A stretch of DNA of 20,016 nucleotides, taken from IMG/VR virus record IMGVR_UViG_3300031758_006414, positions 1-20,016 of that record. One strand, given 5' to 3'. Within the stretch, counting starts at the first letter, position 1, and the number at the start of each line of letters is the position of its first letter. Positions 3,812 through 18,927 of this stretch are shown piece after piece. A program made the translations under genes and the position numbers. The notes beneath the pieces are model-generated. The model had not been told where the DNA came from and ran no database searches. It saw nothing but the letters and a program-made list of their open reading frames with translations. The stretch comes from a virus.

Positions 3812-3816
3812 ATTTA

Positions 3817-3823
3817 ATAAATA
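3817..3823 (-). promoter_or_regulatory. TATTTAT late-type promoter box
   Basis: Reads AGTATTTAT on the minus strand, with 5 nt between the box and the ATG at 3811. Same geometry as the other TATTTAT boxes in the window. Confidence 0.6.
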
Positions 3824-3841
3824 CTATTTTAGATTGATTTG

Positions 3842-4138: not shown

Positions 4139-4142
4139 ATTT

Positions 4143-4152
4143 GATAAATATA
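4143..4152 (-). promoter_or_regulatory. TATATTTATC promoter box
   Basis: Perfect TATATTTATC on the minus strand, with TATTTAT ending 5 nt before the ATG at 4138. It lies in the 26-bp gap after the gene at 4165. Confidence 0.65.
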
Positions 4153-4164
4153 AACCAAGTTAGG

Positions 4165-4518
4165 TTATTCAGAGAAAAAGTCGTCTATGTATAGTTTAAC
4201 TTTTTCTTGTAATTTAACCGAATATAGTTTCCATAAACTTTCAGATAATTTATAGTCTTTATCCATGTCAATACCAACAAGCATAAACCAATTCTTTAAA
4301 TTATATCTACCAGGCGATATAAATGTATAATCATCAGAAGTGTTAAATGCTAAGTCATACGGATTATCAGAGTGAGGGTATTGTATGTAAGCAACATACT
4401 TAAATTTGTCGTATTTGTGTCTTCTACCACCAAATATGGTGGTTCTATCGACAAGCATATCAAGAAACTTGTCGTATATTTTTTCGTTTAATTGGGATTC
4501 AGTTATAATGTATTTCAT
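4165..4518 (-). CDS. MKYIITES-leader protein
   Basis: This 117-residue protein has the standard leader MKYIITESQLNEKIYDKFLD (I5-T6-E7). The body has strands around KYVAYIQYPHSDNPYDLAF, a central SPGRYNLKNWF segment and a C-terminal helix with an acidic end (KLYIDDFFSE). The start overlaps the stop of the gene at 4515-4883 by 4 bp (ATGA), so translation is probably coupled and no separate promoter box is present. Function unknown. Confidence 0.92.
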   Translation of the reverse strand: MKYIITESQLNEKIYDKFLDMLVDRTTIFGGRRHKYDKFKYVAYIQYPHSDNPYDLAFNTSDDYTFISPGRYNLKNWFMLVGIDMDKDYKLSESLWKLYSVKLQEKVKLYIDDFFSE

Positions 4519-4883
4519 GATATATTCGCCGACCTTACTGATTTAATATTTATTTCAGGATAAAACGATAGAAAAACTTGTTTCATTAGACCACTCCCAA
4601 AAATTAACCATAATGGATGAGGTAATAACTTATCTAAAAAATTACCTAAATCTCTACTGTAATACAATTCTTTCGATGGTTTTACATATGTTAACAAGGT
4701 TTCTCGATTAGAGTTATAAAGATTGATTCTTTTATCGTCTTCATGATAATATGAGAACATTTTTTGAATTAATGGAACCATTTTCTCACACAACTTATTG
4801 AATTCTTTTTCTTGACGTTCATCAGACCAAAAATCATCTTCAGTTAATCGTTTTAATTGCGATTCAGTTATAATGTATTTCAT
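4515..4883 (-). CDS. MKYIITES-leader protein
   Basis: The start chosen is the ATG of MKYIITESQLKRLTEDDF (122 residues), because that restores the leader seen in all neighbours; an ATG three codons upstream is less likely. After I5-T6-E7 comes a charged helix, then a tyrosine-rich middle (FSYYHEDDKRINLY) and RDLGNFLDKLLPHPLWLIF, which resembles the LGGKLEKFIKQFIPLNIMI part of 3842-4138. It lies 2 bp downstream of 4886-5326 and overlaps 4165-4518, forming a three-gene operon. Function unknown. Confidence 0.92.
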   Translation of the reverse strand: MKYIITESQLKRLTEDDFWSDERQEKEFNKLCEKMVPLIQKMFSYYHEDDKRINLYNSNRETLLTYVKPSKELYYSRDLGNFLDKLLPHPLWLIFGSGLMKQVFLSFYPEINIKSVRSANIS

Positions 4884-4885
4884 AA

Positions 4886-5326
4886 TCACCAATAACCCAT
4901 TAATATGGTTTTTACATTTATATCGAATCGTTTATTTAAAAAATTAAGAAAATCATATCCCCAATTAACGTGAGAACCAAACATTTGTTCAATTCTTTCG
5001 TACATATCTTCACTTATTATAATTGTGTCAAATGATGGGTCTTGGATGTTAGGTTGTTCATAACAAGGTTCAGGTAAATCACCTTTAAGTTCTTCAGGAT
5101 AATCCCCATCATCATCATATTTTTCACCATTAACCAATTTAAATAAGTAGTTATCGTAGTTATCCCCTGGCAATGTAAAACCAACTGCATAAGGGTCACA
5201 ACAAACCCCCATACCACAATTAAAGTCTGCCCAATTATATTCGATATTAGAAAACCCAGGAAATTCCATTTCCAAGTATTTTCTCATAACGTCAATCATT
5301 TTACTTTCTGTAATTATAAACTTCAT
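4886..5326 (-). CDS. MKFIITES-leader protein, first gene of a minus-strand operon
   Basis: This 146-residue protein starts MKFIITESKMIDVMRKYL. Its C-terminal part (IEQMFGSHVNWGYDFLNFLNKRFDINVKT) has the pattern FGxxxxxxxxFxxWFxxxFxxxVK shared with 17532, 17882, 8164, 10752 and 11125-11793, so it belongs to that body family. A Cys pair (MGVCCDPYAVG) and an acidic loop lie in the middle. It heads the operon 5326 to 4165, with a TATTTAT box 6 nt upstream. Function unknown. Confidence 0.93.
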   Translation of the reverse strand: MKFIITESKMIDVMRKYLEMEFPGFSNIEYNWADFNCGMGVCCDPYAVGFTLPGDNYDNYLFKLVNGEKYDDDGDYPEELKGDLPEPCYEQPNIQDPSFDTIIISEDMYERIEQMFGSHVNWGYDFLNFLNKRFDINVKTILMGYW

Positions 5327-5355
5327 CTAAAGATAAATATGTAATATTTATTAAT
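5327..5355. promoter_or_regulatory. 29-bp divergent promoter with back-to-back TATTTAT boxes
   Basis: The gap between two divergent ATGs is only 29 bp. It holds a minus-strand TATTTAT (5333-5339, 6 nt from the ATG at 5326) and a plus-strand TATTTAT (5345-5351, 4 nt from the ATG at 5356). The layout and much of the sequence recur at 8476-8504. Confidence 0.7.
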
Positions 5356-6045
5356 ATGAGCCTACAAGAATCAATAAAAAGAATATTAAGGGAAGAAACT
5401 GAATTACCTATTTTCATTAGGCGTAGGTTCACGATGAAAGAGTTAGATAAGTTAATTAATAATGTAGAAGATGCAATACTAAAATATGGTGATGATAAAC
5501 ATATTGATGATACGATATATGATGAGGTTAGAGAATTCATTAAAGAAAGAAGATTTGATGATATTGATGAATTTGGTGATGACCAAGATTATTGGAGAAC
5601 TTATTTGAAATATGAAACACCACTTGTGAAATATGTAAAACACAGGATAGACAACAAGTTGGTGAAAGAACAGGAAGATTATTTCCAGCAAAAAGAAAAA
5701 CGAATACAAAAAGAAAAAAAGTTCCAAAAACTGATTGATAGTGAAATACAAATAATGAAGAACATTTGTGAATATATGGACGCGGAAAGTGAAGACGAGT
5801 TCATTTCATTTGATGCTTGTGATTTCCTTGATTTAGACCCAAAAGTTAGAGTAACGAGTGTGGACAAATTAAATGGAGTCTCAAGAATATTAGTTGTTAT
5901 AGAATACGAAGCAATGATGCACTTTCATGACGAAGAAACATTTATTAGTGAATTACAATATAGATTACGTAAATGGATAACTAATGTTAATATAGAAGTG
6001 GAGGATGTATTAAACACATATCCTGATGAAAAAAGACAGTGGTAA
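5356..6045 (+). CDS. MSLQESIKRILREE-leader protein, IRRR subfamily
   Basis: This 229-residue protein has leader MSLQESIKRILREETELP with L11-R12-E13. It is followed by IFIRRRFTMKELDKLI, shared with the second half of 8851-9450 (YIRRRVTMEELDELV). Residues about 20-105 align with that paralog and end in the helix TPLVKYVKHRIDNKLV. A charged coiled coil (about 105-135) and a unique C-terminal domain of about 90 residues follow. It is the first gene of a five-gene plus-strand cluster reaching 7226. No enzymatic motif recognised. Confidence 0.93.
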   Translation: MSLQESIKRILREETELPIFIRRRFTMKELDKLINNVEDAILKYGDDKHIDDTIYDEVREFIKERRFDDIDEFGDDQDYWRTYLKYETPLVKYVKHRIDNKLVKEQEDYFQQKEKRIQKEKKFQKLIDSEIQIMKNICEYMDAESEDEFISFDACDFLDLDPKVRVTSVDKLNGVSRILVVIEYEAMMHFHDEETFISELQYRLRKWITNVNIEVEDVLNTYPDEKRQW

Positions 6046-6046
6046 G

Positions 6047-6415
6047 ATGAGTATAAGAGAATCCATAAAACAAATATTAAGAGAACAATCGGAGAGGAGC
6101 CGATTAATTGACCTGTATATCACAAAAAGAATGAACTCTTTTGAACAAAGTACAGTTAATCACGGAGGTTATAGTCGAGTCAATTTTAGAGAAAAGAATG
6201 GTAGATTAAGGGTATCAATTTTTTTTAATAGGGTTAAACAAGAATTAGAAGTAACTATGTCAGATAATCTATACGGAGAAATATATGGTATGTTCTCAAT
6301 GGAAGGATGGGTAGAAATACAGAAACACTTAATAAATTGGTTTAAAGATAATTTTGATGGATTAGATGATATAAATGAAATCTATACATTTGATGACGAA
6401 GAATACGTATACTAA
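6047..6415 (+). CDS. MSIRESIKQILREQ-leader protein with an EEYVY-ending body
   Basis: The start at 6047 is preferred over an in-frame ATG at 6026 because it gives the leader MSIRESIKQILREQS (L11-R12-E13) and sits 1 bp after the upstream stop. The 122-residue product has body MFSMEGWVEIQKHLINWFKDNF and ends DDEEYVY. The same body, ending EEQYVY, follows a different leader (MKYIITES) in 10752-11090, so leader and body are separable modules. Function unknown. Confidence 0.92.
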   Translation: MSIRESIKQILREQSERSRLIDLYITKRMNSFEQSTVNHGGYSRVNFREKNGRLRVSIFFNRVKQELEVTMSDNLYGEIYGMFSMEGWVEIQKHLINWFKDNFDGLDDINEIYTFDDEEYVY

Positions 6416-6894
6416 TGAATTTACAAGAACAAATATCAAGAATACATGAAATGATGGATGGTAACAACCGTAATAATAGTTCTGTTATAGAAAGATTATT
6501 AAACATGATGTTTGTTGACAAACATGATATTGTGTGTAAAGTAGAAGTTAAACATCCTGATGAAAGAGAAGTTTTAGATGGACAACCAAAATATAAAAGT
6601 TATAGTTTAACAGTAACATTTATTGGTGGTCCTGACACTGAATATTGGCCAGCTCCATTGTTGCTTCGGGACAAGTATGAAGAATTAATGAATGAAGCAT
6701 GGATGATTGTGTATGACTACACAAATACACCTTGTGATATATATTCCAAGTACGTAAAGGAATGTCCTGATGAAACTAATAATATAAGTCACACCGAACT
6801 AACAGAAAGGTGTTGGAAAGGATATACCCAAAAAGGGATGAAGACAATGTTTGGTAAGAGATATCCTAATTGTGTTAAGAAAACAAAGAAATGA
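6415..6894 (+). CDS. MNLQEQISRIHEMM-leader protein
   Basis: Starts at TAATG, sharing one base with the previous stop. The 159-residue protein has a third leader type, MNLQEQISRIHEMMDGNN, with I10-H11-E12. A strand-rich body follows (VKHPDEREVLD, then YKSYSLTVTFIGGPDTEYWP). The C-terminal region (TERCWKGYTQKGMKTMFGKRYPNCVKKTKK) is strongly basic with two Cys, compatible with nucleic-acid or membrane contact, but no family is recognised. It overlaps the next gene by 4 bp. Confidence 0.91.
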   Translation: MNLQEQISRIHEMMDGNNRNNSSVIERLLNMMFVDKHDIVCKVEVKHPDEREVLDGQPKYKSYSLTVTFIGGPDTEYWPAPLLLRDKYEELMNEAWMIVYDYTNTPCDIYSKYVKECPDETNNISHTELTERCWKGYTQKGMKTMFGKRYPNCVKKTKK

Positions 6895-7226
6895 GCCTAC
6901 AAGAATCCATAAGAAGAATATTAAAGGAGGAAACCAATTCACGTTTAAGTGCCAGACGAAGGTTTCATGAGTTAGATGAGTTGTTATATGAATTACTTGC
7001 AACATATTATTCCCCTGGCAAGATTTGCAAATATCGTAATGAGTATGAATTTTTTGAACACATTACATATACAATAATTGCTGACAACATGTATTACAGA
7101 CATTTTGAACACATCGATGATTTGTCAGAAGAATGGAATCAATTATATCGTATGATGGAGGACTATCTTTTAAAAAAGTATCAAGATAAATTGGAGAAGT
7201 ATTACCACATTAATTGTGGTGATTAA
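6891..7226 (+). CDS. MSLQESIRRILKEE-leader protein, IRRR subfamily
   Basis: This 111-residue protein has leader MSLQESIRRILKEETNS (L11-K12-E13) followed by SARRRFHELDELLYELL. This matches the IRRR-(F/V)-x-x-x-(E/D)-L-(D/E) block of 5356, 8505 and the second half of 8851, and the C-terminal helix MMEDYLLKKYQDKLEKYY also matches. The start overlaps the previous stop (ATGA). It is the last intact gene of the 5356-7226 cluster; a leader relic follows 3 bp later. Function unknown. Confidence 0.92.
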   Translation: MSLQESIRRILKEETNSRLSARRRFHELDELLYELLATYYSPGKICKYRNEYEFFEHITYTIIADNMYYRHFEHIDDLSEEWNQLYRMMEDYLLKKYQDKLEKYYHINCGD

Positions 7227-7229
7227 GAT

Positions 7230-7259
7230 ATAAACCTACAAGAAAACATAAGAAGAACT
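7230..7259 (+). pseudogene. Relic of an MNLQES-type leader with ATA for ATG
   Basis: Read in frame from 7230 this gives ATA then N-L-Q-E-N-I-R-R, which matches MNLQESIRR codon for codon (compare 8505). It has no start codon and loses similarity after the second Arg. From there on the bases are the 3' end of the minus-strand gene at 7258. It marks a lost gene or a recombination junction where a minus-strand block was joined into a plus-strand leader. Only about 27 bases support it, but the match is close. Confidence 0.7.
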
Positions 7260-7719
7260 ACCTTAGAGTTGCAAAGAAACCGTAATCCTCACTATTAGGA
7301 TAAAAAGAATCAATATTGGATTCTCTAATATTAATACCATAAGTCTCCCTCACCCAAGATTTTAACACCTTTAATGTCTCACGATATGAATGAATGTCAC
7401 TGAATAAAGCAAGGGCACCAAAAATATAGTCTTGGTTAAAATAAAGATAATTACCATACTCATCATCTTCATCACGAGCATCATAAACTATAATATTATT
7501 CGATTCTCTATAACGATATAAGAAAAGATTAGGATTCTCCTCACTCTCATGTATCTCAAGGTCATCATACAAAGATAGGAATTCATTGTAGTCATTGTTA
7601 AACACTTCATGAACCAAATAATCTTGACCAACCATTTTAGAAGCAAGGGCAAATCCGTTTTCTTTAACAGTTTGTTTTAACAATGAATGTTTTTGTGATT
7701 CTGTGATGAGGTATTTCAT
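7258..7719 (-). CDS. MKYLITES-leader protein, GFxxAxxMVG body
   Basis: This 153-residue protein begins MKYLITESQKHSLLKQTV, then ENGFALASKMVGQDYLVHEVF. The latter pattern is shared with 7725, 9452, 9876 and 10346, which carry two different leaders. The C-terminal WVRETYGINIRESNI segment links it to the WFxxxF...V tail family. It ends in TAG, showing that TAG is a stop here, and its last codons abut the leader relic. It lies 5 bp after 7725-8162 in a three-gene operon. Function unknown. Confidence 0.92.
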   Translation of the reverse strand: MKYLITESQKHSLLKQTVKENGFALASKMVGQDYLVHEVFNNDYNEFLSLYDDLEIHESEENPNLFLYRYRESNNIIVYDARDEDDEYGNYLYFNQDYIFGALALFSDIHSYRETLKVLKSWVRETYGINIRESNIDSFYPNSEDYGFFATLR

Positions 7720-7724
7720 ATAAA

Positions 7725-8162
7725 TTATAATTCGTATTCTGCAATTTTTAGATATTTCCCAGTGTCTTTGTAAACCCTAACCTTTTCACTATACAACTCA
7801 GGAAATCGGGACACCAATTCTTTAATTAAGTTTCTTCTATTCGAGGTATAAAATGTAGTTAACTCCTCACCAATAGTTAATTTGATATAATCGTCATATA
7901 CGGTTAAATCTAGTCCCCATATAGAGGAGGGTTTTTCCAAAATAGGGAGTCCACCATTCATCAACAAAATAGAACCTCCTCGTTTTGTAATATTTAATTT
8001 ATCAAATTTATTAATCATTACATCCATGAGTTTTGACTCACCAACGATATTAATTAAATTGTTCATACCCCCAACCAAATCAGAAGCCATATCAACCTCA
8101 CCATTTTTCACAAGGTTAATTAACAATTCACTCTTTTGATTTTCTGTAATTAAGTATTTCAT
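7725..8162 (-). CDS. MKYLITEN-leader protein, AxxLVGGxxxLINI body
   Basis: This 145-residue protein begins MKYLITENQKSELLINLV, then MASDLVGGMNNLINIVG, closely paralleling TANMVGGVDDLLNILG of 9876-10325, which carries the other leader. The C-terminal half (GLDLTVYDDYIKLTIGEEL, NLIKELVSRF) has no recognised motif. Spacing is 1 bp to the upstream gene and 5 bp to the downstream one, so it is the middle cistron of the minus-strand operon 8475-7258. Function unknown. Confidence 0.92.
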   Translation of the reverse strand: MKYLITENQKSELLINLVKNGEVDMASDLVGGMNNLINIVGESKLMDVMINKFDKLNITKRGGSILLMNGGLPILEKPSSIWGLDLTVYDDYIKLTIGEELTTFYTSNRRNLIKELVSRFPELYSEKVRVYKDTGKYLKIAEYEL

Positions 8163-8163
8163 A

Positions 8164-8475
8164 TTACATTACATAAGGTTCATCAACAGGAAGTTCAAAA
8201 TTTTTTTCAAACCAATTTGTTAATTTTAAAGTACTATCTATAGGGTCTAATGAAAAAAATGAGGATATTTCCATAATTAGTTTTGCGGATATACCAAGTT
8301 CTTTTGTTTTAACATAATAAGAAAAAATAGGACGATGACTATTCGTCCAAGATTCTTTATTTAACCAAATAAGAATATTATCCCTATCATCAACGGTATA
8401 TAAATCTTTAAACATACTATCAAGGTAGTTAAAGTATATTTTATCCAATTGGGTTTCTGTGATGATGTACTTCAT
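8164..8475 (-). CDS. MKYIITET-leader protein with WFEKNFELPV tail
   Basis: This 103-residue protein begins MKYIITETQLDKIYFNYLDS. The tail FSLDPIDSTLKLTNWFEKNF aligns without gaps to FTMDEPDFTPVISSWVEEVL of the repeat-bearing gene at 11125-11793, making it that gene's best local paralog. It shows what the repeat-gene body looks like without the array: here the protein ends about 12 residues after the helix. It heads a three-gene operon from the divergent promoter at 8476-8504. Function unknown. Confidence 0.92.
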   Translation of the reverse strand: MKYIITETQLDKIYFNYLDSMFKDLYTVDDRDNILIWLNKESWTNSHRPIFSYYVKTKELGISAKLIMEISSFFSLDPIDSTLKLTNWFEKNFELPVDEPYVM

Positions 8476-8504
8476 ATAAAGATAAATATATGATATTTAT
8501 TAAT
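8476..8504. promoter_or_regulatory. 29-bp divergent promoter, second copy
   Basis: Same length and layout as 5327-5355: minus-strand TATTTAT at 8482-8488 (6 nt from the ATG at 8475) and plus-strand TATTTAT at 8494-8500 (4 nt from the ATG at 8505). The outer flanks (AAAGATAAATAT and TATTTATTAAT) are identical in both copies. Confidence 0.7.
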
Positions 8505-8849
8505 ATGAACCTACAAGAAACCATAAGAAGAATATTAAGGGAAGAGTCCAAACCTATCCTGATGATTAGACGCAGAGTCCCTGACGATGATTTAGAGAGG
8601 GAGTTTAGTGAATCTTTAGAGATGTCATCAAATATGTTACGTAATACAAATAAAGAAGATGGGAGTATTATGAGTTTAAATAGGTTTATAGATGTAACAA
8701 CTTCAATTTTAATGGATGGGATTCATTACGAACTATATAGTACAATGCCAGAAGATTCACAATGGTATGGTGAGGCTATAGAAAGTTTAAAAGATTACTA
8801 TAAAGATAGAATTAAAAGTAGATATAAAAAATTAGTTTCAAATATATAA
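8505..8849 (+). CDS. MNLQETIRRILREE-leader protein, IRRR subfamily
   Basis: The start at 8505 gives the leader MNLQETIRRILREESKP and sits 4 nt after the TATTTAT box; an in-frame ATG at 8490 would lie inside the box. The 114-residue product continues MIRRRVPDDDLEREF and ends with the helix ESLKDYYKDRIKSRYKKLV, matching the paralogs at 5356 and 6891. First gene of the plus-strand cluster 8505-10325. Function unknown. Confidence 0.92.
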   Translation: MNLQETIRRILREESKPILMIRRRVPDDDLEREFSESLEMSSNMLRNTNKEDGSIMSLNRFIDVTTSILMDGIHYELYSTMPEDSQWYGEAIESLKDYYKDRIKSRYKKLVSNI

Positions 8850-8850
8850 C

Positions 8851-9450
8851 ATGAGTCTAAAACAATCCATAAGAAGAATATTAAGGGAAGATAAAAAAAC
8901 TAAATCAACTAATAAAGAATTTAGTAAATACAAAAATTCAAAGTTTAATACTTTAAGAGATTATACTTTACAAGATATTGTTGATAATTGGGATTCACTA
9001 TCTGACCACAAGAATGAAAACATAAAGACAATAAAACATTTTATTAATAACCCCGATAAGATAACTGATTTGGTTTATGATGAAAAAGGTTTAGAAGATG
9101 GTTACCATAGGTTAATTGCAGCTAAAATATTAAAAAAACCAAGATTTAGTTACAGATTAGTTGAGAACCTACAAGAATCCATAAGAAGAATATTAAGGGA
9201 AGAAACTGAACTACCATCGTATATTAGAAGAAGGGTAACTATGGAAGAATTAGATGAATTAGTTGACGATGTTAAAAATTCAATGGATAATGGTCGGTCT
9301 AGACCCAATACAATATATGGTTTAATACAAGATTTTATAATGTCTAAAGAATCATTCAAGTTAACAGGTGAAACAGAAGAAGAATATTGGTATTCTTATG
9401 AAAAATTTGCAAATCCTTTAGTTGATTATGTTAAATCAAAATTAGATTAA
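8851..9450 (+). CDS. Double-leader fusion: ParB-nuclease-like half plus IRRR-subfamily half
   Basis: This 199-residue ORF is two leader genes in one frame. Part 1 (1-105) has leader MSLKQSIRRILRED, then a segment ending LEDGYHRLIAAKILKKPRF (81-99), which resembles the DGxHRxxAA motif of ParB/sulfiredoxin-fold nuclease domains. Part 2 starts at residue 106 with a full second leader, NLQESIRRILREETELP, where the expected ATG is GAG (9163-9165). It continues YIRRRVTMEELDELV, the closest relative of 5356-6045. Both leaders keep L-R-E, so cleavage of the precursor could release two products. The ParB-like assignment rests on one motif. Confidence 0.9.
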   Translation: MSLKQSIRRILREDKKTKSTNKEFSKYKNSKFNTLRDYTLQDIVDNWDSLSDHKNENIKTIKHFINNPDKITDLVYDEKGLEDGYHRLIAAKILKKPRFSYRLVENLQESIRRILREETELPSYIRRRVTMEELDELVDDVKNSMDNGRSRPNTIYGLIQDFIMSKESFKLTGETEEEYWYSYEKFANPLVDYVKSKLD

Positions 9451-9451
9451 T

Positions 9452-9874
9452 ATGAACTTACAAGAATCCATAAGAAGAATATTAAGGGAAGAATCATCAC
9501 CAACAAAAAAACTTAGGGATTTTGTTGCATCAAACGGATTTATAACCGCAAGAAAAGTTTTTGGTAATGATGAGAAATTTTATGAGACAATTGATTTAGA
9601 TGGGTCAGTAGATGATAATTTATTTGTTATAAAAACAATCCTAAATCATGATGTAGTAAATAGAGAGATATGTAACTTCAAAATAACAAAACTATATAAT
9701 GGTAACAGAATCGAAGTCTTAATTTTTATTCCTCAAGTAAATGAAGACGAGGAATCTTATAGTAATAAATTAAAGGAAATTGCGGTTAGTAGAGAAATAA
9801 GTGACCACATTTTTGAATTAGGTGTAGGTACGGTTAGAGGACACAATATAAAGGTTCAAACATGGAAATGTTGA
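9452..9874 (+). CDS. MNLQESIRRILREE-leader protein, NGFxxAxxxxG body
   Basis: This 140-residue protein begins MNLQESIRRILREESSPT. The next segment, LRDFVASNGFITARKVFG, is the same body start seen after the MKYLITES leader in 7258. A strand-rich middle (CNFKITKLYNGNRIEVLIFI) and a C-terminal VGTVRGHNIKVQTWKC follow. It sits 1 bp after 8851-9450 and 1 bp before 9876, mid-operon. Function unknown. Confidence 0.92.
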   Translation: MNLQESIRRILREESSPTKKLRDFVASNGFITARKVFGNDEKFYETIDLDGSVDDNLFVIKTILNHDVVNREICNFKITKLYNGNRIEVLIFIPQVNEDEESYSNKLKEIAVSREISDHIFELGVGTVRGHNIKVQTWKC

Positions 9875-9875
9875 T

Positions 9876-10325
9876 ATGAATTTAAAAGAATCCATAAGAA
9901 GAATATTAAGGGAAGAATATACTGAAAAACAAATGAAGTTATTAACCCTTGCAAGTCAGGTAGGTTTTCTAAAGACTGCCAATATGGTAGGAGGAGTTGA
10001 TGACCTTCTTAATATATTAGGTAACGACTTTCTTAACAATAAGAATAATAAGATTATGATTATTAAGGAAGTTGTGGAGTCAACTGATGATGAATATATC
10101 ACACTTATGGATATGAATGAAAATCCAATAGTTGTAAAAGATGAGGATGGAGAGATTAGTCAGATAGAAATGATATATCCAAACGATGTTACAATATTTC
10201 ACTATGGAGGATATGAGTATTCCCAAGATTTAGGGGAAACGTATATGGATTATTATACATTACCAAAAGATATCTTAGATGATATCTTTAATATGGTTAT
10301 GGGTTATTATATGGAGAATAACTAA
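9876..10325 (+). CDS. MNLKESIRRILREE-leader protein, TANMVGGVDDLLNILG body
   Basis: This 149-residue protein begins MNLKESIRRILREEYTEKQ. Body residues LASQVGFLKTANMVGGVDDL match 7725-8162, which carries the other leader. The rest is acidic (about 70-149) with many Tyr/Met and ends MVMGYYMENN. Last gene of the 8505-10325 cluster, convergent with the gene at 10346 across a 20-bp gap in which no terminator hairpin is evident. Function unknown. Confidence 0.92.
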   Translation: MNLKESIRRILREEYTEKQMKLLTLASQVGFLKTANMVGGVDDLLNILGNDFLNNKNNKIMIIKEVVESTDDEYITLMDMNENPIVVKDEDGEISQIEMIYPNDVTIFHYGGYEYSQDLGETYMDYYTLPKDILDDIFNMVMGYYMENN

Positions 10326-10345
10326 TCGTACCCCGTGATGAGGTC

Positions 10346-10750
10346 TTATAATGATTGATTAATCGGGTTAAAATTAATCTTGTCGACTTTTATTTTATAT
10401 TTCTCTAACAACCAATTCTTGGTTATTTCCCTAATCACATCTTTCTCAAGATTAAAGTCCACATATAGAGGTTCGAAAAAATCATTATAATCAACAAAGA
10501 CTTCTTTTTTCCTCGGGTTGTATAACATAATGTTTCTCCCATTAAGACTATAAACCCACAACGTTGATTTAAGTTTACGAACTTCCATGTTGTCAAACAT
10601 TCTAATAAATTCATTCGGGTCATTATTAAAACCTAACTCAATAACTTTTTCAGGACTACCAATAACCCGTAAAGCAAATTTATACCCACTAGATTTAACT
10701 AACTGTTGTATTAGTTTTTCTTGTTGATTCTCAGTGATAATGTATTTCAT
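10346..10750 (-). CDS. MKYIITEN-leader protein, GYxFALRVIG body
   Basis: The start chosen is the ATG of MKYIITENQQEKLIQQLV (134 residues). A longer frame adds 38 residues overlapping 10752-11090 and would bury the leader. The body KSSGYKFALRVIGSPEKVIELGFNNDPNEF parallels ENGFALASKMVGQDYLVHEVFNNDYNEF in 7258-7719, so these two are close paralogs. The C-terminus has KNWLLEKYKIKVDKI. It lies 1 bp after 10752-11090 as the second gene of a two-gene operon. Function unknown. Confidence 0.92.
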   Translation of the reverse strand: MKYIITENQQEKLIQQLVKSSGYKFALRVIGSPEKVIELGFNNDPNEFIRMFDNMEVRKLKSTLWVYSLNGRNIMLYNPRKKEVFVDYNDFFEPLYVDFNLEKDVIREITKNWLLEKYKIKVDKINFNPINQSL

Positions 10751-10751
10751 A

Positions 10752-11090
10752 TTAGTATACGTATTGTTCTTCACCACGGGAGAAAGTCGAGATATTCGAT
10801 TCTTCCACAGGTAAGTTATAATGTTTATGTAACCATTTAGATAATACGGACTGTATAGCCTCAAAACTTTTCATAGAAAACATATGGAATACAATATCCC
10901 AAATCTTGTCCAATACCCAAACAAAATAACTATTATTTTTTAATGGATAAACCATAATCATGGGGTCACCATTATCATTAACCAATGTAAGTTTATCACC
11001 GTCTAACTGATGATGTAATTCACCAAATTGTTTTGTGAGGAAATTATCAATCGTGGAGATAAGTTTAGATTCTGTTATTATGTATTTCAT
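10752..11090 (-). CDS. MKYIITES-leader protein with EEQYVY-ending body
   Basis: The start is placed at MKYIITESKLISTIDNFL (112 residues), 5 nt after a TATTTAT box; an upstream in-frame ATG at 11132 would span the box. The C-terminal half (FHMFSMKSFEAIQSVLSKWL, then EEQYVY) matches 6047-6415, which carries the other leader. It also belongs to the WFxxxF...V tail family. First gene of the operon 11090-10346. Function unknown. Confidence 0.92.
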   Translation of the reverse strand: MKYIITESKLISTIDNFLTKQFGELHHQLDGDKLTLVNDNGDPMIMVYPLKNNSYFVWVLDKIWDIVFHMFSMKSFEAIQSVLSKWLHKHYNLPVEESNISTFSRGEEQYVY

Positions 11091-11094
11091 AATA

Positions 11095-11104
11095 GATAAA
11101 TATA
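11095..11104 (-). promoter_or_regulatory. TATATTTATC promoter box
   Basis: Perfect TATATTTATC on the minus strand (TATTTAT 11096-11102), with 5 nt between the box and the ATG at 11090. Confidence 0.65.
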
Positions 11105-11124: not shown

Positions 11125-11793
11125 TTATTCAATTACATTATGATTTAGAACCTCGTCTACTTTACGTACAAGCATGGTTTCTAACTTATATGTTTCATTC
11201 ACCTTACAATTAAGGGATTCTTCCACCAAATATTCCACAGGATTTTCAGAATGACCTGTTGTGTTTACCTTATAATTCAAAACCTCTTCCACCTTTAAGT
11301 TCAGTTCACGCTCAATAGTTTCTGTTGTGTTCACCTTACAATTCAAGACCTCTTCCACCTCACCCCTAAAATACCCAATGCCTCTTGTTGTTGTGCTTAC
11401 CTTACAATTCAAGACCTCTTCCACCAAAAGGAAAATTGGATGGTCATTACACAGAGTTGTGTTCACCTTACAATTCAAGACCTCTTCCACCTGGGAGAGA
11501 GAGATATCATAGGGTATGAAGGTTGTGTTCACCTTACAATTCAAGACCTCTTCCACCCAAGAAGAAATAACGGGGGTAAAATCAGGCTCATCCATTGTAA
11601 AAAGGACAAAGAACTTAGTAAAGAAACCATATCTCCATAGTAATCTCCCATCTGATTTACAATACCTGAAATACCAAAACTTTTCTTCCCTATCAATGAA
11701 CCATATATAATCATGAAAATGAATAATCTCTACATGAGATAAATCCTTATACAGTTTCTTAAATATTAAATCCTTCAGTCTACTACTCACCAT
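11125..11793 (-). CDS. Leaderless paralog whose 3' end is a CRISPR-like repeat array (22-residue repeats)
   Basis: The start at 11793 (ATG, 6 nt after TAACTTTG) is preferred over a TTG three codons upstream. Residues 1-79 form a body related to 8164-8475 (FTMDEPDFTPVISSW versus FSLDPIDSTLKLTNW) but without the MKYIITES leader. Residues 80-222 are in-frame 22-residue units: VEEVLNCKVNTT plus ten unrelated residues, repeated down to a degenerate VDEVLNHNVIE before TAA. The 12-residue unit fits the normal C-terminal helix of this body family, so the repeat looks native to the gene. No stop occurs in roughly 60 interval codons. Either a real repeat protein or a CRISPR-like array that happens to stay open. 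Confidence 0.7.
   Translation of the reverse strand: MVSSRLKDLIFKKLYKDLSHVEIIHFHDYIWFIDREEKFWYFRYCKSDGRLLWRYGFFTKFFVLFTMDEPDFTPVISSWVEEVLNCKVNTTFIPYDISLSQVEEVLNCKVNTTLCNDHPIFLLVEEVLNCKVSTTTRGIGYFRGEVEEVLNCKVNTTETIERELNLKVEEVLNYKVNTTGHSENPVEYLVEESLNCKVNETYKLETMLVRKVDEVLNHNVIE
11126..11557 (-). CRISPR. CRISPR-like array: seven 36-bp repeats, six 30-bp intervals
   Basis: Repeats lie at 11126-11161, 11192-11227, 11258-11293, 11324-11359, 11390-11425, 11456-11491 and 11522-11557, a strict 66-bp period. The plus-strand unit begins GTTGTG and ends CTTCCACC. The copies at 11324, 11456 and 11522 are identical; those at 11390 and 11258 have 2 and 3 changes; 11192 has about 8; 11126 matches about 20 of 36. 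The intervals share no evident similarity. Degeneration at one end is typical of a CRISPR trailer, placing the leader side at 11557 and transcription on the minus strand. On that strand the repeat can form a 5-bp stem with a 7-nt loop and ends ACACAAC. No cas gene is in the window, and the array lies inside an open reading frame. Confidence 0.6.
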
Positions 11794-11799
11794 AATAAA

Positions 11800-11807
11800 C
11801 AAAGTTA
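11800..11807 (-). promoter_or_regulatory. TAnnTTTG box (TAACTTTG)
   Basis: TAACTTTG on the minus strand, 6 nt before the ATG at 11793. It supports that start and would transcribe the repeat array. Confidence 0.5.
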
Positions 11808-14444: not shown

Positions 14445-14786
14445 ATGAAATACATTATAACTGAAAATCAAACGGATAACGTTATTGAAAAGGTGTTAAA
14501 GAAAAGTAACATTCAATATACCATTGAGTATGGAGAAAGAGAATTTTATGGGGAAACATATTTTTATAAATTAAATGTTTGGTTTACAATAGATGGTTAT
14601 AATGTATATAGACCATTTGAGTATTACTATCGTGTTAAAGATAATAATATTGTTGGACTTGAATGGAGTGATGGGATTAACGATATGCACATATTCAAAT
14701 TTCTCCCACCTGAAATGGTTAATGATTATTTTAGAAAAAAGACAAGGGAGTATCTACAGGAAATGTTTGATACGGACACTATATAA
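14445..14786 (+). CDS. MKYIITEN-leader protein, FLPPEMVxxYF family
   Basis: The start at 14445 restores MKYIITENQTDNVIEKVL (113 residues). An in-frame ATG at 14403 with its own TAnnTTTG box would add 14 residues (MNVGKVYSNLYLSY). The body is strand-rich and aromatic and ends with HIFKFLPPEMVNDYFRKKTREYLQEMF. That tail is shared with 15225 (YIPHKILMDYFIEKGKRHLEK) and 16782 (LFKFMPPDMVIKYFSDKVENYLKK), defining a three-member family. First gene of the right-hand plus-strand array. Function unknown. Confidence 0.92.
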   Translation: MKYIITENQTDNVIEKVLKKSNIQYTIEYGEREFYGETYFYKLNVWFTIDGYNVYRPFEYYYRVKDNNIVGLEWSDGINDMHIFKFLPPEMVNDYFRKKTREYLQEMFDTDTI

Positions 14787-14889
14787 TTTCCAACGAAAAT
14801 CTAATAAAGTATTTTATACCCCCATATTCAAAAAAAATTTCTGGAAAAATTTTGGTAAAACGGTTCTATTTATAACTAAAGAATATACT
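14787..14889 (+). promoter_or_regulatory. Intergenic region with TATTTAT box and repeated TTCTGGAAAAA motif
   Basis: A TATTTAT at 14867-14873 lies 16 nt before the ATG at 14890. Upstream, TTTCTGGAAAAATTTTGG (about 14838-14855) repeats a motif seen at about 14336-14362 before the previous gene, together with a CCCCCATAT word. Likely a promoter region; no convincing terminator hairpin is visible. Confidence 0.4.
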
Positions 14890-15165
14890 ATGGGAAAATT
14901 TATTATAACCGAAGAGGAGAAAAAACATATCATGGGATTATATGAGTCTGTCATTGTAAAATCCCCCAATGAAGATGAGTGGTGTAAGAAGAACATTACT
15001 GATAAAACAAATCAAGTATGTGTTGTAAAAACTCCTGATAATGGGGATAAAGAAATATGTAGAAGAATGACAGGGGACTTTGTGAAAAGTAAAGGATATG
15101 TAAACAATATTAAAATTGAATCCGAGGGAAATTTCTGTAGGACAGTTTGGGAAAAGATTAAGTGA
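14890..15165 (+). CDS. MGKFIITEEEKKHIMGLYE-leader, Cys-rich small protein
   Basis: The start at 14890 gives a 91-residue protein with another leader type (I6-T7-E8 within MGKFIITEEEKKHIMGLYE). The longer frame upstream is a shadow of 14445. The body has four cysteines (EWCKK, NQVCVV, KEICRR, GNFCRT) in a pattern suggesting a small disulfide- or metal-stabilised fold, and it is basic at both ends. A strong terminator follows. Function unknown. Confidence 0.9.
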   Translation: MGKFIITEEEKKHIMGLYESVIVKSPNEDEWCKKNITDKTNQVCVVKTPDNGDKEICRRMTGDFVKSKGYVNNIKIESEGNFCRTVWEKIK

Positions 15166-15174
15166 TAACAAATT

Positions 15175-15205
15175 AACCCTTCCTTTATCGGAGGGGTTTT
15201 TATTT
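15175..15205 (+). terminator. Rho-independent terminator
   Basis: AACCCTTCC (15175-15183) pairs with GGAGGGGTT (15190-15198) over 9 bp including one G-U, with a 6-nt loop and a T-rich tail. It ends the 14445-15165 unit. Confidence 0.85.
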
Positions 15206-15210
15206 CCCCA

Positions 15211-15220
15211 TATATTTATC
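15211..15220 (+). promoter_or_regulatory. TATATTTATC promoter box
   Basis: Perfect TATATTTATC, four bases before the ATG at 15225, directly after the terminator. Confidence 0.68.
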
Positions 15221-15224
15221 TTAT

Positions 15225-15599
15225 ATGAAAATCATTCTTGCAGAATCTCAATATATTAACCTATTGGAATCCTCCGACAGGGGTAATGTTATTGAGAGAA
15301 TCTTGGAAATGAAAGGTATTGAGTATGACGGTTGTGAATATGATGGGAGAACCCGTGATAATTTTGGAAGAACCTATGACTCTGTTGTTTTTTATTTTGA
15401 GTATCCTAATGATTATAAACATAGAAGTATTCGTTTTTTAACCAAAGATAATGAAGTTGTCAGGGTTGCAAGCTCATCAGATTTTAGAACGATTACCGAT
15501 GGGTTTAACTATATCCCTCATAAAATTTTAATGGATTATTTTATTGAAAAGGGTAAAAGACATTTGGAAAAAATATTACCTCTAAAAGATGTATCATGA
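15225..15599 (+). CDS. MKIILAES-leader protein, PPxMVxxYF-type family
   Basis: This 124-residue protein begins MKIILAESQYINLLESSDRG, with candidate sites L5-A6-E7 and L13-L14-E15. Body GNVIERILEMKGIEYDG parallels DNVIEKVLKKSNIQYTI of 14445, and the C-terminal YIPHKILMDYFIEKGKRHLEK matches that family. It has a conspicuous run of D/G/Y/R residues (EYDGCEYDGRTRDNFGRTYD). Its own promoter and flanking terminators make it monocistronic. Function unknown. Confidence 0.92.
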   Translation: MKIILAESQYINLLESSDRGNVIERILEMKGIEYDGCEYDGRTRDNFGRTYDSVVFYFEYPNDYKHRSIRFLTKDNEVVRVASSSDFRTITDGFNYIPHKILMDYFIEKGKRHLEKILPLKDVS

Positions 15600-15713
15600 A
15601 AAAATTTATTAAAATGGTATAGACCGACCGACCCGAACTCCCTTCGGTCGTTGTCAATCCCCCCGCCCCCTTTTTTTTTCGAGTTTTGTTATATTTATAT
15701 CATAAAGAACATT
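15600..15713 (+). promoter_or_regulatory. Hairpin, C/T homopolymer tract and TATTTAT box
   Basis: CGACCGA (15625-15631) can pair with TCGGTCG (15644-15650). This is followed by C6-G-C5-T9 (15659-15679), an unusual tract in this genome. TATATTTAT (15690-15698) lies 15 nt before the ATG at 15714. The hairpin may terminate the upstream gene, though the T-run is displaced about 20 nt from it. Confidence 0.5.
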
Positions 15714-16379
15714 ATGGATACAAATAGATTTAAACAATTATTAGAGTCATCGTTAGGTAACGTTAAACCATTACTTATGGAATCGTTGGATTCGGGATGT
15801 TTACGTAGTGCTGGATTCACAAGAGAGTCTATCGGAGGTCCAATGACAAGACGTATGGTTTATGAGAAAACAAAAAACGGTGTTACATACCAAATTGGTA
15901 TTACAGGTAATGACACACCATCTTCAGAATTAAAAATGATTAAGAACGGTACCTCACAATATTGTTCTTGGACTTGTGATTCAGCATCACCTATTGGAAT
16001 TAAATATTCGGGGTGTAAGGTTGAGGAACGACCATTAAATGAAGAAGAAATGGACGAAAGTGTAATCATTACTAATGAAGATTATCCATTCCCTGATGAC
16101 CCAAATGATTTTGGTAAATTTGAGGTTGAGGAGATTTTTAATGTTGCAAGTAGTGTTGATGAAGCAAATGAAATGATTAAAGACATATACCCTGGTTATT
16201 ATTTTAATGCGGATTTCGAAACACCTGATGGTAAAACTATAAATTTCTATACACCTGATGGTGAAAAAATAACAGGAAAATATATTGTAGGTTGTTGTGG
16301 AGGAATGGGTTCTACAGAAAACCTTGATAGATTTAGTCGTAGTGATGACGCATTTTTTAACCCAAATAAGAAATATTAA
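15714..16379 (+). CDS. MDTNRFKQLLES-leader protein with Cys motifs
   Basis: The start at 15714 (MDTNRFKQLLESSLGNVKPL) avoids a proline/phenylalanine extension translated from the C/T tract. The 221-residue protein has another leader type with sites L9-L10-E11 and L21-M22-E23. Its middle has NGTSQYCSWTCDS and YSGCKVEER, an acidic linker, a repeated TPDGKTINFYTPDGEKITG pair of strands, and a C-terminal VGCCGGMGS. The cysteines could bind metal or form disulfides. It lies 10 bp before 16390, so probably an operon. Function unknown. Confidence 0.92.
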   Translation: MDTNRFKQLLESSLGNVKPLLMESLDSGCLRSAGFTRESIGGPMTRRMVYEKTKNGVTYQIGITGNDTPSSELKMIKNGTSQYCSWTCDSASPIGIKYSGCKVEERPLNEEEMDESVIITNEDYPFPDDPNDFGKFEVEEIFNVASSVDEANEMIKDIYPGYYFNADFETPDGKTINFYTPDGEKITGKYIVGCCGGMGSTENLDRFSRSDDAFFNPNKKY

Positions 16380-16389
16380 AAAGAACACA

Positions 16390-16713
16390 ATGAACAAAAA
16401 AATAAAATTATCTGAATCTGATTTAATGAGAATTGTTAAACGTGTTGTTAATGAACAAAGTTTTGACGAATCAAATGATTACGAAAAAAAATATGATGGT
16501 CTTGTTTCCCAGTTACGTAATATTATTTTTGACCTTGAAAAAATATCAGAAGAATTTAATCAACTTGGTAGACAAGTTTCTTCAGAGTTGGAATCTTTTG
16601 AAGATGATGACAATTTTGAATTTGACGAATCAAAAGATTACTTAGGGGAAATTGCCTCTGCTTGTTATTATTATGATGACAAAATTAATGACTTCATGAG
16701 AGAATTGGATTAA
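16390..16713 (+). CDS. LSESDLMRIVKRVVNEQ-leader acidic protein
   Basis: The start at 16390 gives the leader MNKKIKLSESDLMRIVKRVV, related to that of 18574 (RLTESQLTKIVKRVIKE), with sites L7-S8-E9 and V20-N21-E22. The rest of the 107 residues is a strongly acidic helical protein (DYEKKYDGLVSQLRNIIFDL, then ESFEDDDNFEFDESKDY) ending in DDKINDFMRELD. This basic amphipathic leader on an acidic body would suit a scaffold-bound cargo. A strong terminator follows. Function unknown. Confidence 0.91.
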   Translation: MNKKIKLSESDLMRIVKRVVNEQSFDESNDYEKKYDGLVSQLRNIIFDLEKISEEFNQLGRQVSSELESFEDDDNFEFDESKDYLGEIASACYYYDDKINDFMRELD

Positions 16714-16732
16714 AAAGTTAATATAAAGTATT

Positions 16733-16760
16733 AAACCCACCTCATCAGGTGGGTTTTTTA
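16733..16760 (+). terminator. Rho-independent terminator, 10-bp perfect stem
   Basis: AAACCCACCT (16733-16742) and AGGTGGGTTT (16747-16756) pair perfectly around CATC, followed by a T-rich tail. The identical stem recurs at 18945-18968. Confidence 0.9.
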
Positions 16761-16768
16761 TTTCATAT

Positions 16769-16778
16769 AGTATTTATC
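16769..16778 (+). promoter_or_regulatory. TATTTATC promoter box
   Basis: AGTATTTATC (TATTTAT 16771-16777) lies 4 nt before the ATG at 16782, 13 nt after the terminator stem. Confidence 0.65.
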
Positions 16779-16781
16779 TAT

Positions 16782-17141
16782 ATGATATACCTTATTAGAG
16801 AATCACAATCTAAAGACGTTATGACGAACTTCCTAAAAAAAATGGGGATTAAAGTTCATATACTGTATTGGCAAGATAATGGTTATGATAGTATAACGGG
16901 AACTGTATATCTTTATAAAGATGAAAAAATGTTGGGGTATACACACGGATATGAATTTTATTTTAAATACGACTCAAGATTTAATAACTTAAAATATGAA
17001 GGACGTTGGCCTTATATCGAGAATCTTGATTTATTTAAATTTATGCCACCTGATATGGTTATTAAATACTTTTCGGATAAAGTTGAAAATTATTTGAAAA
17101 AATTTATTGATGATGGATATTCAACCCTTAGAAAAAGATAA
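16782..17141 (+). CDS. MIYLIRES-leader protein, FMPPDMVxxYF family
   Basis: The start at 16782 is set by the box 4 nt upstream; a longer frame from 16749 crosses both box and terminator. The 119-residue product begins MIYLIRESQSKDVMTNFLKK (I5-R6-E7). It shares LFKFMPPDMVIKYFSDKVENYLKK with 14445 and 15225 and ends in a basic tail (STLRKR). First of four closely spaced MKFIITES-type genes. Function unknown. Confidence 0.92.
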   Translation: MIYLIRESQSKDVMTNFLKKMGIKVHILYWQDNGYDSITGTVYLYKDEKMLGYTHGYEFYFKYDSRFNNLKYEGRWPYIENLDLFKFMPPDMVIKYFSDKVENYLKKFIDDGYSTLRKR

Positions 17142-17146
17142 GTAAT

Positions 17147-17515
17147 ATGAAATTCATAATAACAGAATCACAATTTAATTTGATAGGGTTGGAAAAAAAA
17201 TCTGATTTGTTATATAGATTAATGAAATCATTTTTTCCTGAGAATTATGAGTATGAAAATTCGAATAACGAAACTGAAGTATTTGCAAATGAAAACAATA
17301 TTGAGTTATTGTTTTTTTATGATTGGGATACTAAAGATTTTCACATTGGAGCAAATTTCATTAATGAATTATATGAAGCAACTGAAATACCATTTCTAAA
17401 TGTACATGAAGCGCAAAGAATTCAAAATCGACCAATGTTTGACGAACTAATGAAAGTTTTTGCCAAAAGACATTATGGTTGGGATGTAAATAAAGTGTGG
17501 TTTCATTTTTATTAA
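17147..17515 (+). CDS. MKFIITES-leader protein
   Basis: This 122-residue protein has leader MKFIITESQFNLIGLEKKSD and starts 5 bp after the previous stop. The body includes NNIELLFFYDWDTKDFHIGA and a C-terminal part with FDELMKVFAKRHYGWDVNKV, an instance of the helix-then-V tail common to these bodies. No promoter box of its own, so likely read from 16769. Function unknown. Confidence 0.92.
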   Translation: MKFIITESQFNLIGLEKKSDLLYRLMKSFFPENYEYENSNNETEVFANENNIELLFFYDWDTKDFHIGANFINELYEATEIPFLNVHEAQRIQNRPMFDELMKVFAKRHYGWDVNKVWFHFY

Positions 17516-17517
17516 AT

Positions 17518-17527
17518 TATATTTATC
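17518..17527 (+). promoter_or_regulatory. TATATTTATC promoter box
   Basis: Perfect TATATTTATC, four bases before the ATG at 17532. Confidence 0.66.
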
Positions 17528-17531
17528 TAAT

Positions 17532-17885
17532 ATGAAATTCATAATAACAGAATCTAAAGCCGAACAAATTATCCTGAAATATTTGGATGTGTATATCGAA
17601 CCTGATTATAGTTGGGGACCTGATTTACATAAGTTCTATCGTCAAGAAGTTAAAAACGCTGGTGTTTATGATTTTGTTATTAATGATAGACGAGCTTACT
17701 CTTATTGGGATGGAAATAATAATGATAAACTATTGGAAGTAATGCCGTGGGTTTATGAACAACTTGATAGTTTGTTTGGTTCAATGTGGGAAGATATTTT
17801 TATTGAGTGGTTTGAGAAAAACTCTGGCCTTAAAGTTAAACGATTTGAAAAATACGATGCCGATTGGGTACCAAAAAGAATATGA
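17532..17885 (+). CDS. MKFIITES-leader protein, WFEKNSGLKV tail family
   Basis: This 117-residue protein begins MKFIITESKAEQIILKYLDV. The C-terminal block LDSLFGSMWEDIFIEWFEKN matches LNSMFQDKWKPVFKEWFKEN of the next gene and the tails of 4886 and 8164. Trp is frequent (YSWGPD, YSYWDG, MPWVYE). It overlaps 17882-18247 by 4 bp (ATGA), so the two paralogs are probably translated together. Function unknown. Confidence 0.93.
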   Translation: MKFIITESKAEQIILKYLDVYIEPDYSWGPDLHKFYRQEVKNAGVYDFVINDRRAYSYWDGNNNDKLLEVMPWVYEQLDSLFGSMWEDIFIEWFEKNSGLKVKRFEKYDADWVPKRI

Positions 17886-18247
17886 GATTCGTAATTTCCG
17901 AAAATAGACTGAACGATATTATCCTAAACTTCATAAATAATTATTATGATGTTGATGAGATACACTCCAGTCCATTTCATGATGAAGATGGAAATCCAAC
18001 GAATAAGGCTATTGAGTATTATCTTGGTGATTGGGGAGATGGTGAAGAGATATTCAGATTATATAACGAAAGTTATTGGATAAATCCAGGTGATTTCCGT
18101 AAAGAGTTAAGTCCAATATTAATGATTGAGAATGAGAATTTTGTTTCTCACCTTAATTCAATGTTTCAAGATAAATGGAAACCTGTATTTAAAGAGTGGT
18201 TTAAGGAAAATTTTGGTGAAGAGATAAGAACAATTGATTTTTATTGA
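17882..18247 (+). CDS. MRFVISEN-leader protein, WFKENFGEEI tail family
   Basis: The start at 17882 (MRFVISENRLNDIILNFINN, 121 residues) is preferred to an in-frame ATG at 17864 because it restores the leader (I5-S6-E7) and gives the ATGA overlap. It is a tandem duplicate of 17532-17885, sharing LNSMFQDKWKPVFKEWFKENF at its C-terminus. A central YLGDWGDGEEIFRLYNESYW is acidic and aromatic. Function unknown. Confidence 0.92.
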   Translation: MRFVISENRLNDIILNFINNYYDVDEIHSSPFHDEDGNPTNKAIEYYLGDWGDGEEIFRLYNESYWINPGDFRKELSPILMIENENFVSHLNSMFQDKWKPVFKEWFKENFGEEIRTIDFY

Positions 18248-18254
18248 TATTTAT
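18248..18254 (+). promoter_or_regulatory. TATTTAT box with longer spacing
   Basis: TGATATTTATAAAAA immediately follows the previous stop and lies 13 nt before the ATG at 18268, resembling the box before 12940. Confidence 0.45.
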
Positions 18255-18267
18255 AAAAAAATAAGTT

Positions 18268-18567
18268 ATGAACAGAAGTTATAGTAAAATTAGACATATT
18301 CAAGAGTCCAACCGTTTATTGGAAAATAGACTACTTAATGAACAAACAACAACTGGTACTACGGGAACAACTCAAGTTGATATTAGTGAGTGTTTAAAAC
18401 CTTTAATTGAACAGGTAAAACCGCAAGCATGTAAAGGAACAACCATAGATTCTATGAAATGTTATGAAGAATTAAAACAAGTTGGTGGTCCATTTGCAAG
18501 TGGTGGAGACGTTAGTCTAAAGACTGCATATTTTTGCGTTAGTGATAAATTGGGGATGAATAAATAA
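18268..18567 (+). CDS. SYSKIRHIQESNRLLENRL-leader, Cys-containing small protein
   Basis: This 99-residue protein has a further leader type, MNRSYSKIRHIQESNRLLEN, carrying three candidate sites (I11-Q12-E13, L17-L18-E19, L23-N24-E25). A Thr/Gly linker (TTTGTTGTTQ) leads into a small domain with four Cys (ISECLKP, PQACKG, MKCYEE, YFCVSD), reminiscent of the spacing in 14890-15165. It lies 6 bp before 18574, so probably an operon. Function unknown. Confidence 0.91.
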   Translation: MNRSYSKIRHIQESNRLLENRLLNEQTTTGTTGTTQVDISECLKPLIEQVKPQACKGTTIDSMKCYEELKQVGGPFASGGDVSLKTAYFCVSDKLGMNK

Positions 18568-18573
18568 TTTGAA

Positions 18574-18927
18574 ATGAAGAAAGTAGTAAGATTAACAGAA
18601 TCTCAATTAACCAAAATAGTTAAAAGAGTTATTAAAGAAAACCAAACTGAGAGAGAGTTGGATTTAAGAAATAAACTTAATGATATCTTTTTTGGTCATG
18701 ATGAATACAATATGACAAGTGAACCAGGAGAATTCGGTTTTCTTTCACAAGAACATAGATTAAGTAAAAAGATTAGTCCAAGACAAAGAATTAAAAGAAT
18801 TGAGATGGTTATTAACGACCTTGAAAATTACATTGAAGACTTAAAGGACATTGCACAAGGAGAAGATGTGTATACCCAAAATCCTGAATACGATTCAGTA
18901 TGGAAGGATATTGAAAAGGATATGTAA
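18574..18927 (+). CDS. RLTESQLTKIVKRVIKE-leader protein
   Basis: This 117-residue protein begins MKKVVRLTESQLTKIVKRVI, a basic amphipathic leader with L7-T8-E9 and I20-K21-E22, like 16390. The body is charged and mostly helical (RQRIKRIEMVINDLENYIED) with an acidic end (VWKDIEKDM). Both genes with this leader are followed by the same terminator stem, suggesting duplication of a leader-body-terminator cassette. Function unknown. Confidence 0.92.
   Translation: MKKVVRLTESQLTKIVKRVIKENQTERELDLRNKLNDIFFGHDEYNMTSEPGEFGFLSQEHRLSKKISPRQRIKRIEMVINDLENYIEDLKDIAQGEDVYTQNPEYDSVWKDIEKDM

Follow-up and report, generated by a model that had tools for sequence, protein, structure and literature searches.

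The locus studied here raises the question whether a row of repeats with CRISPR-like geometry in a phage genome is a CRISPR array or a protein repeat. It lies in a linear IMG/VR virus record of 20,016 bp (the window, i.e., the whole stretch of DNA analyzed), where seven 36-bp units separated by 30-bp intervals follow each other from 11126 to 11557 at an exact period of 66 bp (Table 1). The original prediction saw here a CRISPR array shaped by Cas1-Cas2 spacer acquisition, with three identical, two nearly identical and two decayed repeats and six mutually unrelated intervals. This anatomy was borne out, with the decayed copies at the low-coordinate end. Near-identical direct repeats within the range of 23-47 bp and unique spacers of uniform length are features of CRISPR arrays in general, and both are present. 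Tandem Repeats Finder did not report the array in the window because the intervals are unrelated to each other. A chance origin is excluded, since members of this family turn up in dozens of contigs.

Table 1. Features of the array gene in the window. Identities are to the first repeat; reading follows the minus strand and starts at 11557.
Feature	Position	Strand	Sequence or identity	Basis or remark
Array-protein gene	11125-11793	-		ATG at 11793 (TTG at 11802 possible); stop codon 11125-11127; homologues
Folded N-domain, ~79 aa	11558-11793	-	ends ...ISSW	alpha-beta4-alpha-alpha predicted; AlphaFold2, alignments
Repeat 1	11522-11557	-	GGTGGAAGAGGTCTTGAATTGTAAGGTGAACACAAC; 36/36	Proximal "leader" end; also the domain's native C-terminal helix-strand (VEEVLNCKVNTT)
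Interval (spacer) 1	11492-11521	-	FIPYDISLSQ	Unmatched in IMG/VR
Repeat 2	11456-11491	-	36/36
Interval 2	11426-11455	-	LCNDHPIFLL
Repeat 3	11390-11425	-	34/36
Interval 3	11360-11389	-	TRGIGYFRGE
Repeat 4	11324-11359	-	36/36
Interval 4	11294-11323	-	ETIERELNLK
Repeat 5	11258-11293	-	33/36
Interval 5	11228-11257	-	GHSENPVEYL
Repeat 6	11192-11227	-	28/36	Decayed
Interval 6	11162-11191	-	YKLETMLVRK
Repeat 7	11126-11161	-	20/36	Terminal; holds the gene end (VDEVLNHNVIE)

First, we consider the coding nature of the array. It lies entirely within a single minus-strand open frame (11125-11802), whose stop codon ends the last decayed repeat, and the protein comprises 222 aa if translation starts at the ATG or 225 aa if it starts at the TTG. 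Of the distinct repeat sites recovered in a nucleotide profile search, 343 of 348 are located in a long open frame. Moreover, 164 unique intervals contain no in-frame stop in 1640 codons, as compared to 55 of 1476 and 143 of 1476 codons in the other two forward frames (143 in frame +2). CRISPR arrays are non-coding, whereas this array is translated sequence. In the protein, the N-domain is followed by 12-aa repeats (VEEVLNCKVNTT) that alternate with unrelated 10-aa intervals, always in frame. AlphaFold2 modeling with 23 homologues predicts residues 1-88 confidently (pLDDT ~90) and places the last helix of the N-domain in continuity with repeat 1, while the array tail is predicted to be disordered (pLDDT below 40). 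A known fold or family for the N-domain was ruled out in PDB (no match with E below 1), Pfam and PHROG.

Alignment searches recovered this type of gene from no fewer than 35 IMG/VR contigs (5-326 kb) of large T4-like phages, with 56 distinct genes carrying two or more intervals. The first relative (L006) has four tandem paralogues, each with an array of its own and with differing intervals. The longest array has 15 intervals (L105, 5986-7311; 442 aa), one of which, VSINKFIPRD, occurs twice. Neither 84,980 species genomes of bacteria and archaea nor 50,697 records of cultured phages yielded a member of the family, and its presence in these groups was rejected. Array-less paralogues in the same phages have a C-terminal end, W-VENTLQMKVTNT or similar, that is homologous to repeat 1, so that repeat 1 is a native part of this protein family. 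In L131, L075, L044, L061, L129 and L080, W-VENTLQMKVTNT is followed by short, often unrelated tails up to the stop codon; L131 (4996, minus strand) carries a single 22-aa unit, VENTTQMKVTNT-PISFPTKELM-VENTPQ. These tails may mark array sites of a second type that arose more recently.

A native first repeat and intervals that are open in frame are also what an ordinary repeat protein would offer, in which a 66-bp unit was duplicated in tandem and the intervals then diverged rapidly. The way in which related arrays differ argues against this origin. Interval pairs are nearly the same or else unrelated, and no class in between exceeds the shuffled expectation. Common intervals were found in 75 array pairs, which are not independent of each other, and are collinear in all of them. 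The intervals not in common are 323 leading, 109 internal and 58 trailing, and leading ones outnumber trailing ones in 59 pairs with the reverse in 4. Orthologous arrays hence have their distal intervals in common and differ in the proximal ones, and turnover at the proximal end (11557 in the window), for which a comparison of strains had been proposed, is seen across the family. Furthermore, repeats decay distally, from a mean of 2.5 mismatches to repeat 1 at repeat 2 up to about 6 at repeats 5-6. Same-or-unrelated intervals, an interval base composition unlike that of the gene and turnover from one end rule out simple tandem duplication with divergence, and an ordinary repeat protein is disfavored as an extremely improbable explanation. 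The final interval base, which directly precedes the first codon of the repeat, is a G in 157 of 164 cases, and the third base of the codon following ...ACA is free. Thus, the unit that is duplicated in the DNA measures 36 bp and is shifted by one base from the codon grid, as would be expected if the process acts at the DNA level. Polarized turnover, same-or-unrelated intervals, distal decay and the 36 + 30 bp geometry support the part of the original prediction that concerned spacer acquisition: the array resembles a CRISPR array in its mode of growth.

Comparison of the repeat with known CRISPR repeats, likewise proposed at the outset, revealed a resemblance to the repeats of type VI-B (Cas13b) systems. 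The window repeat is identical to VI-B repeats at 25 of 36 positions, a value reached by 0 of 200,000 of its shuffles; the phage repeats range from 17 to 28 of 36 (mean 22.9, best 28/36). For most phage repeats the match exceeds that of random synonymous recodings of the same peptide, and in 25 array-less paralogues, used as a control, the homologous region scores 10-17 of 36 (mean 13.8). A pattern common to the repeats of the window and of Bergeyella zoohelcum VI-B was found in three of 84,980 species, all from genera with type VI-B systems (B. zoohelcum, Riemerella anatipestifer, and Capnocytophaga cynodegmi), which demonstrates specificity and is not an independent discovery, as the overlap between these very repeats had defined the pattern. 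The arrays of the three species have the 36 + 30 = 66 bp geometry of the phage arrays, and a Cas13b gene was read directly adjoining the B. zoohelcum array (L107). The strand of the phage repeat and its 3' end (ACAAC) also agree with the orientation of VI-B crRNA. No bacterium carrying the phages' own repeat was found.

The repeat is, moreover, constrained at silent sites. Codon by codon in 37 non-redundant genes, the constraint sets in with the first codon of the repeat (GTG, p = 1e-24; GAG, p = 4e-17; AAG, p = 1e-14) and stops at the 36-bp edge (p = 0.44). VI-B-like repeats, low-scoring paralogues and silent-site constraint confined to 36 bp together mean that a native protein sequence has been bent at the nucleotide level toward a CRISPR repeat. 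A constraint that covers exactly 36 bp offset from the codons, and a VI-B resemblance that is missing in the paralogues, are further arguments against an ordinary repeat protein. Upstream of repeat 1, a weak codon bias is seen in the 37 genes at codons -6 to -3 (CCC, TCT), where the DNA is coding; it could be a leader-like recognition element.

If the array grows by integration, the machinery and the source of the intervals have to be considered. The original prediction noted the lack of cas genes, and this holds as far as tested: Cas1 was not detected in 41 phage records, Cas2 and Cas4 not in 22 and Cas13b, the VI-B effector, not in 29. Hence, any machinery would be that of the host. No integrase was obvious beside the arrays in the open reading frame lists of five loci, which contain mostly small paralogues and are not exhaustively annotated. 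A precedent is offered by the VI-B array of Flavobacterium columnare, which has no Cas1-Cas2 of its own and gains spacers of 28-32 bp, mostly 30 bp, through the Cas1-Cas2 of a II-C system (PMC8092290). The II-C and VI-B repeats of this species have in common the length of 36 bp and a leader-distal GTTGT/ACAAC motif, and many of its VI-B spacers derive from the host genome (PMC8092290). By analogy, integration in trans would be the simplest agent here.

The protospacers that the prediction implied were not found. No source was detected in phage sequences, in plasmids (48 intervals), or in 396 Bacteroidota genomes, which were searched with the same 48 intervals and no positive control; exact scans of IMG/VR with three intervals returned the arrays themselves or nothing. 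No interval was thus matched to mobile elements or host DNA within the limited coverage of the databases. An origin in the phages' own genomes was rejected, as 2 Mb of their DNA with the arrays masked contained no source and the best matches were about as good as in the reversed-sequence control. The idea that adjacent intervals are consecutive pieces of one gene, raised by the DHHA1-like look of TFGGGGHSKE-IGFDYSTESL in L044, was unsupported in PDB, Pfam and phages. The composition of the intervals nevertheless carries information on their origin. Their GC content is 0.40 as compared to 0.32 in phage genes, which fits a foreign source, and host DNA may be the main one. In a codon-phase mixture model, 38-48% of the intervals have the composition of in-frame sense coding sequence, where random capture with a filter against stops predicts 27-29%, and few are antisense.

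The strand, the ACAAC end and the 36 + 30 bp geometry would also suit a true phage mini-CRISPR, in which the mRNA is at the same time a pre-crRNA that directs host Cas13b to competing phages or to transcripts of the host. Huge phages that lack spacer-acquisition genes are known to carry arrays without cas genes, and these are short as well, with a median of six repeats in one survey (PMC7162821). However, those arrays are not described as coding and some of their spacers match other phages, whereas the arrays here are always in frame and have no matches in any of the sequence sets searched. In addition, the phage repeats lack a VI-B-like fold, with predicted RNA folding z-scores of +1.2, +0.6, -1.3, and +0.2 as opposed to -3.4 and -2.1 for real VI-B repeats. 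Functional Cas13b guides were rejected on account of this missing hairpin and of sense capture being favored over antisense, and the requirement for an open frame would be left unexplained. We therefore regard a mini-CRISPR as quite unlikely. The missing hairpin bears equally on an RNA anti-CRISPR sponge, in which repeat mimics within a single mRNA would tie up Cas13b or processing enzymes of the host. Racr units, solitary copies of CRISPR repeats in phages, are a precedent for such mimicry (PMC10651486), and each phage here has several copies and genes. Yet Racrs are single non-coding units that sit behind a promoter and act as RNA, and the survey found no type VI examples (PMC10651486); the array here is multi-unit, coding and subject to turnover. 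Since a sponge explains neither the polarized turnover of intervals nor their coding nature, it is a very improbable reading.

Which selection acts on the intervals is indicated by their variants. Between orthologues, 14 synonymous and 12 non-synonymous interval changes were counted along minimum spanning links, where neutrality predicts a synonymous share of 0.30 (p = 0.01), and the pairwise pN/pS is 0.22. This is modest evidence that selection acts on the interval peptides. Mostly synonymous change, the excess of in-frame sense intervals and the fact that the arrays are always coding would fit a protein diversity generator run by borrowed Cas1-Cas2, in which 10-aa peptides are displayed on constant 12-aa spacers and useful ones are kept, so that selection is on the protein and not on the DNA site. 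We consider this unlikely, though less so than the RNA-based readings: the tail is predicted to be disordered, the selection signal is small, and the closeness of the repeat DNA to VI-B is not explained by it. Diversity-generating retroelements of phages also diversify the C-terminal part of a protein. They do so by adenine-directed substitution from a template repeat with a reverse transcriptase, whereas unrelated blocks are inserted here and no reverse transcriptase (RVT_1) was found in 22 records.

Taken as a whole, the CRISPR array of the original prediction did not hold in that form. The array is the translated C-terminal tail of a protein, with stop-free intervals and mostly synonymous change, and differs from VI-B arrays in lying inside a phage gene, in a repeat that derives from a native protein family and in the loss of the RNA hairpin. 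No targets, no cas genes, a coding nature and no hairpin are the four reasons for which we do not class it as a CRISPR array. Synonymous-biased change and a lack of protospacers had been named beforehand as arguments against such an array, and both were found in part; the acquisition pattern holds nonetheless. Hence, neither a plain CRISPR array nor a plain protein repeat describes the locus.

We propose instead that, in one subfamily of a large phage-specific paralogue family, the DNA of the C-terminal helix-strand was turned into a mimic of a VI-B repeat. Prespacers of ~30 bp would be inserted at the first repeat by a trans-acting integrase, probably host Cas1-Cas2, and each insertion would duplicate the 36-bp repeat. 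Insertions would keep the frame because 66 bp equal 22 codons, so that a stop-free insertion would leave the gene intact and add 22 residues to the disordered tail; older units would decay and then disappear distally. That the coding array was built by integration is likely. The whole explanation, in which a coding sequence mimics a CRISPR repeat of the host and is extended in trans by host Cas1-Cas2, we hold with moderate confidence. Against it speak the searches that yielded neither a source for any interval nor a bacterium with the phages' own repeat, and the DNA ahead of repeat 1, which is coding and shows no more than a weak leader-like bias. We lean slightly toward describing it as a translated CRISPR array, in which host Cas1-Cas2 writes 30-bp spacers into a phage coding repeat and the spacers are expressed as peptides, be it a protein-writing or an immunity-absorbing device. 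Ectopic (off-target) integration can place spacers in host or phage DNA that resembles a repeat and start a new array there. In the present case, in contrast, selection maintains the site in divergent phages, and its product is translated. As to the use for the phage, a DNA site kept by selection, a tolerance for any stop-free insert and the lack of an RNA hairpin are best fitted by a decoy that diverts spacer integration to itself while the phage infects and leaves the host unimmunized. This role is the most likely one but tentative, and a decoy alone does not predict the mostly synonymous change of the intervals. Next in likelihood is the diversification of a host-facing protein.

The phages and the surroundings of the arrays provide some context. 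One array-bearing phage encodes a T4-like tail sheath, a baseplate wedge and a major head protein, and closer cultured relatives of its capsid include Flavobacterium phage immuto, Microcystis phage Mel-JY01 and Rhodothermus phage RM378. These relatives make a Bacteroidota host likely, if not proven. In the window, many small paralogues that start with MKYIITES..., MNLQESIRRILREE... or RLTESDL... are encoded on both strands at 2933-11095 and 14448-18927, and they also occur in L073, L085 and L092. The MKYIITE start is also present in one array gene (L090, minus strand, 9736). The N-terminal I/L-x-E motifs of the small paralogues recall prohead-protease sites and capsid-targeting sequences of T4, and these proteins may be packaged and injected. 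Other features of the window are a partial histidine-kinase-like ATPase end, judged by eye (1-285), a response-regulator receiver protein with a Pfam match (304-741), an endolysin candidate with peptidoglycan-binding and GH19 chitinase-type domains in Pfam (1428-2255) and an 18-bp tandem repeat of 2.2 copies inside a coding region (14529-14567).

No report of in-frame CRISPR-like arrays was found in the open PMC literature, and translated arrays that gain spacers provisionally appear to be new. If the proposed explanation is true, the arrays would be a hitherto undescribed viral counter-move to CRISPR adaptation, one that does not inhibit interference but offers spacer integration a decoy in the form of DNA; it would also follow that spacers can be expressed as protein. 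Phage genomes would then offer a directly testable integration site for Cas1-Cas2, and CRISPR finders and host-prediction pipelines could misread coding arrays as CRISPR loci. The in-frame gain of unrelated 10-residue blocks at one defined site is a new route to protein diversity in phages even if Cas1-Cas2 has no part in it.
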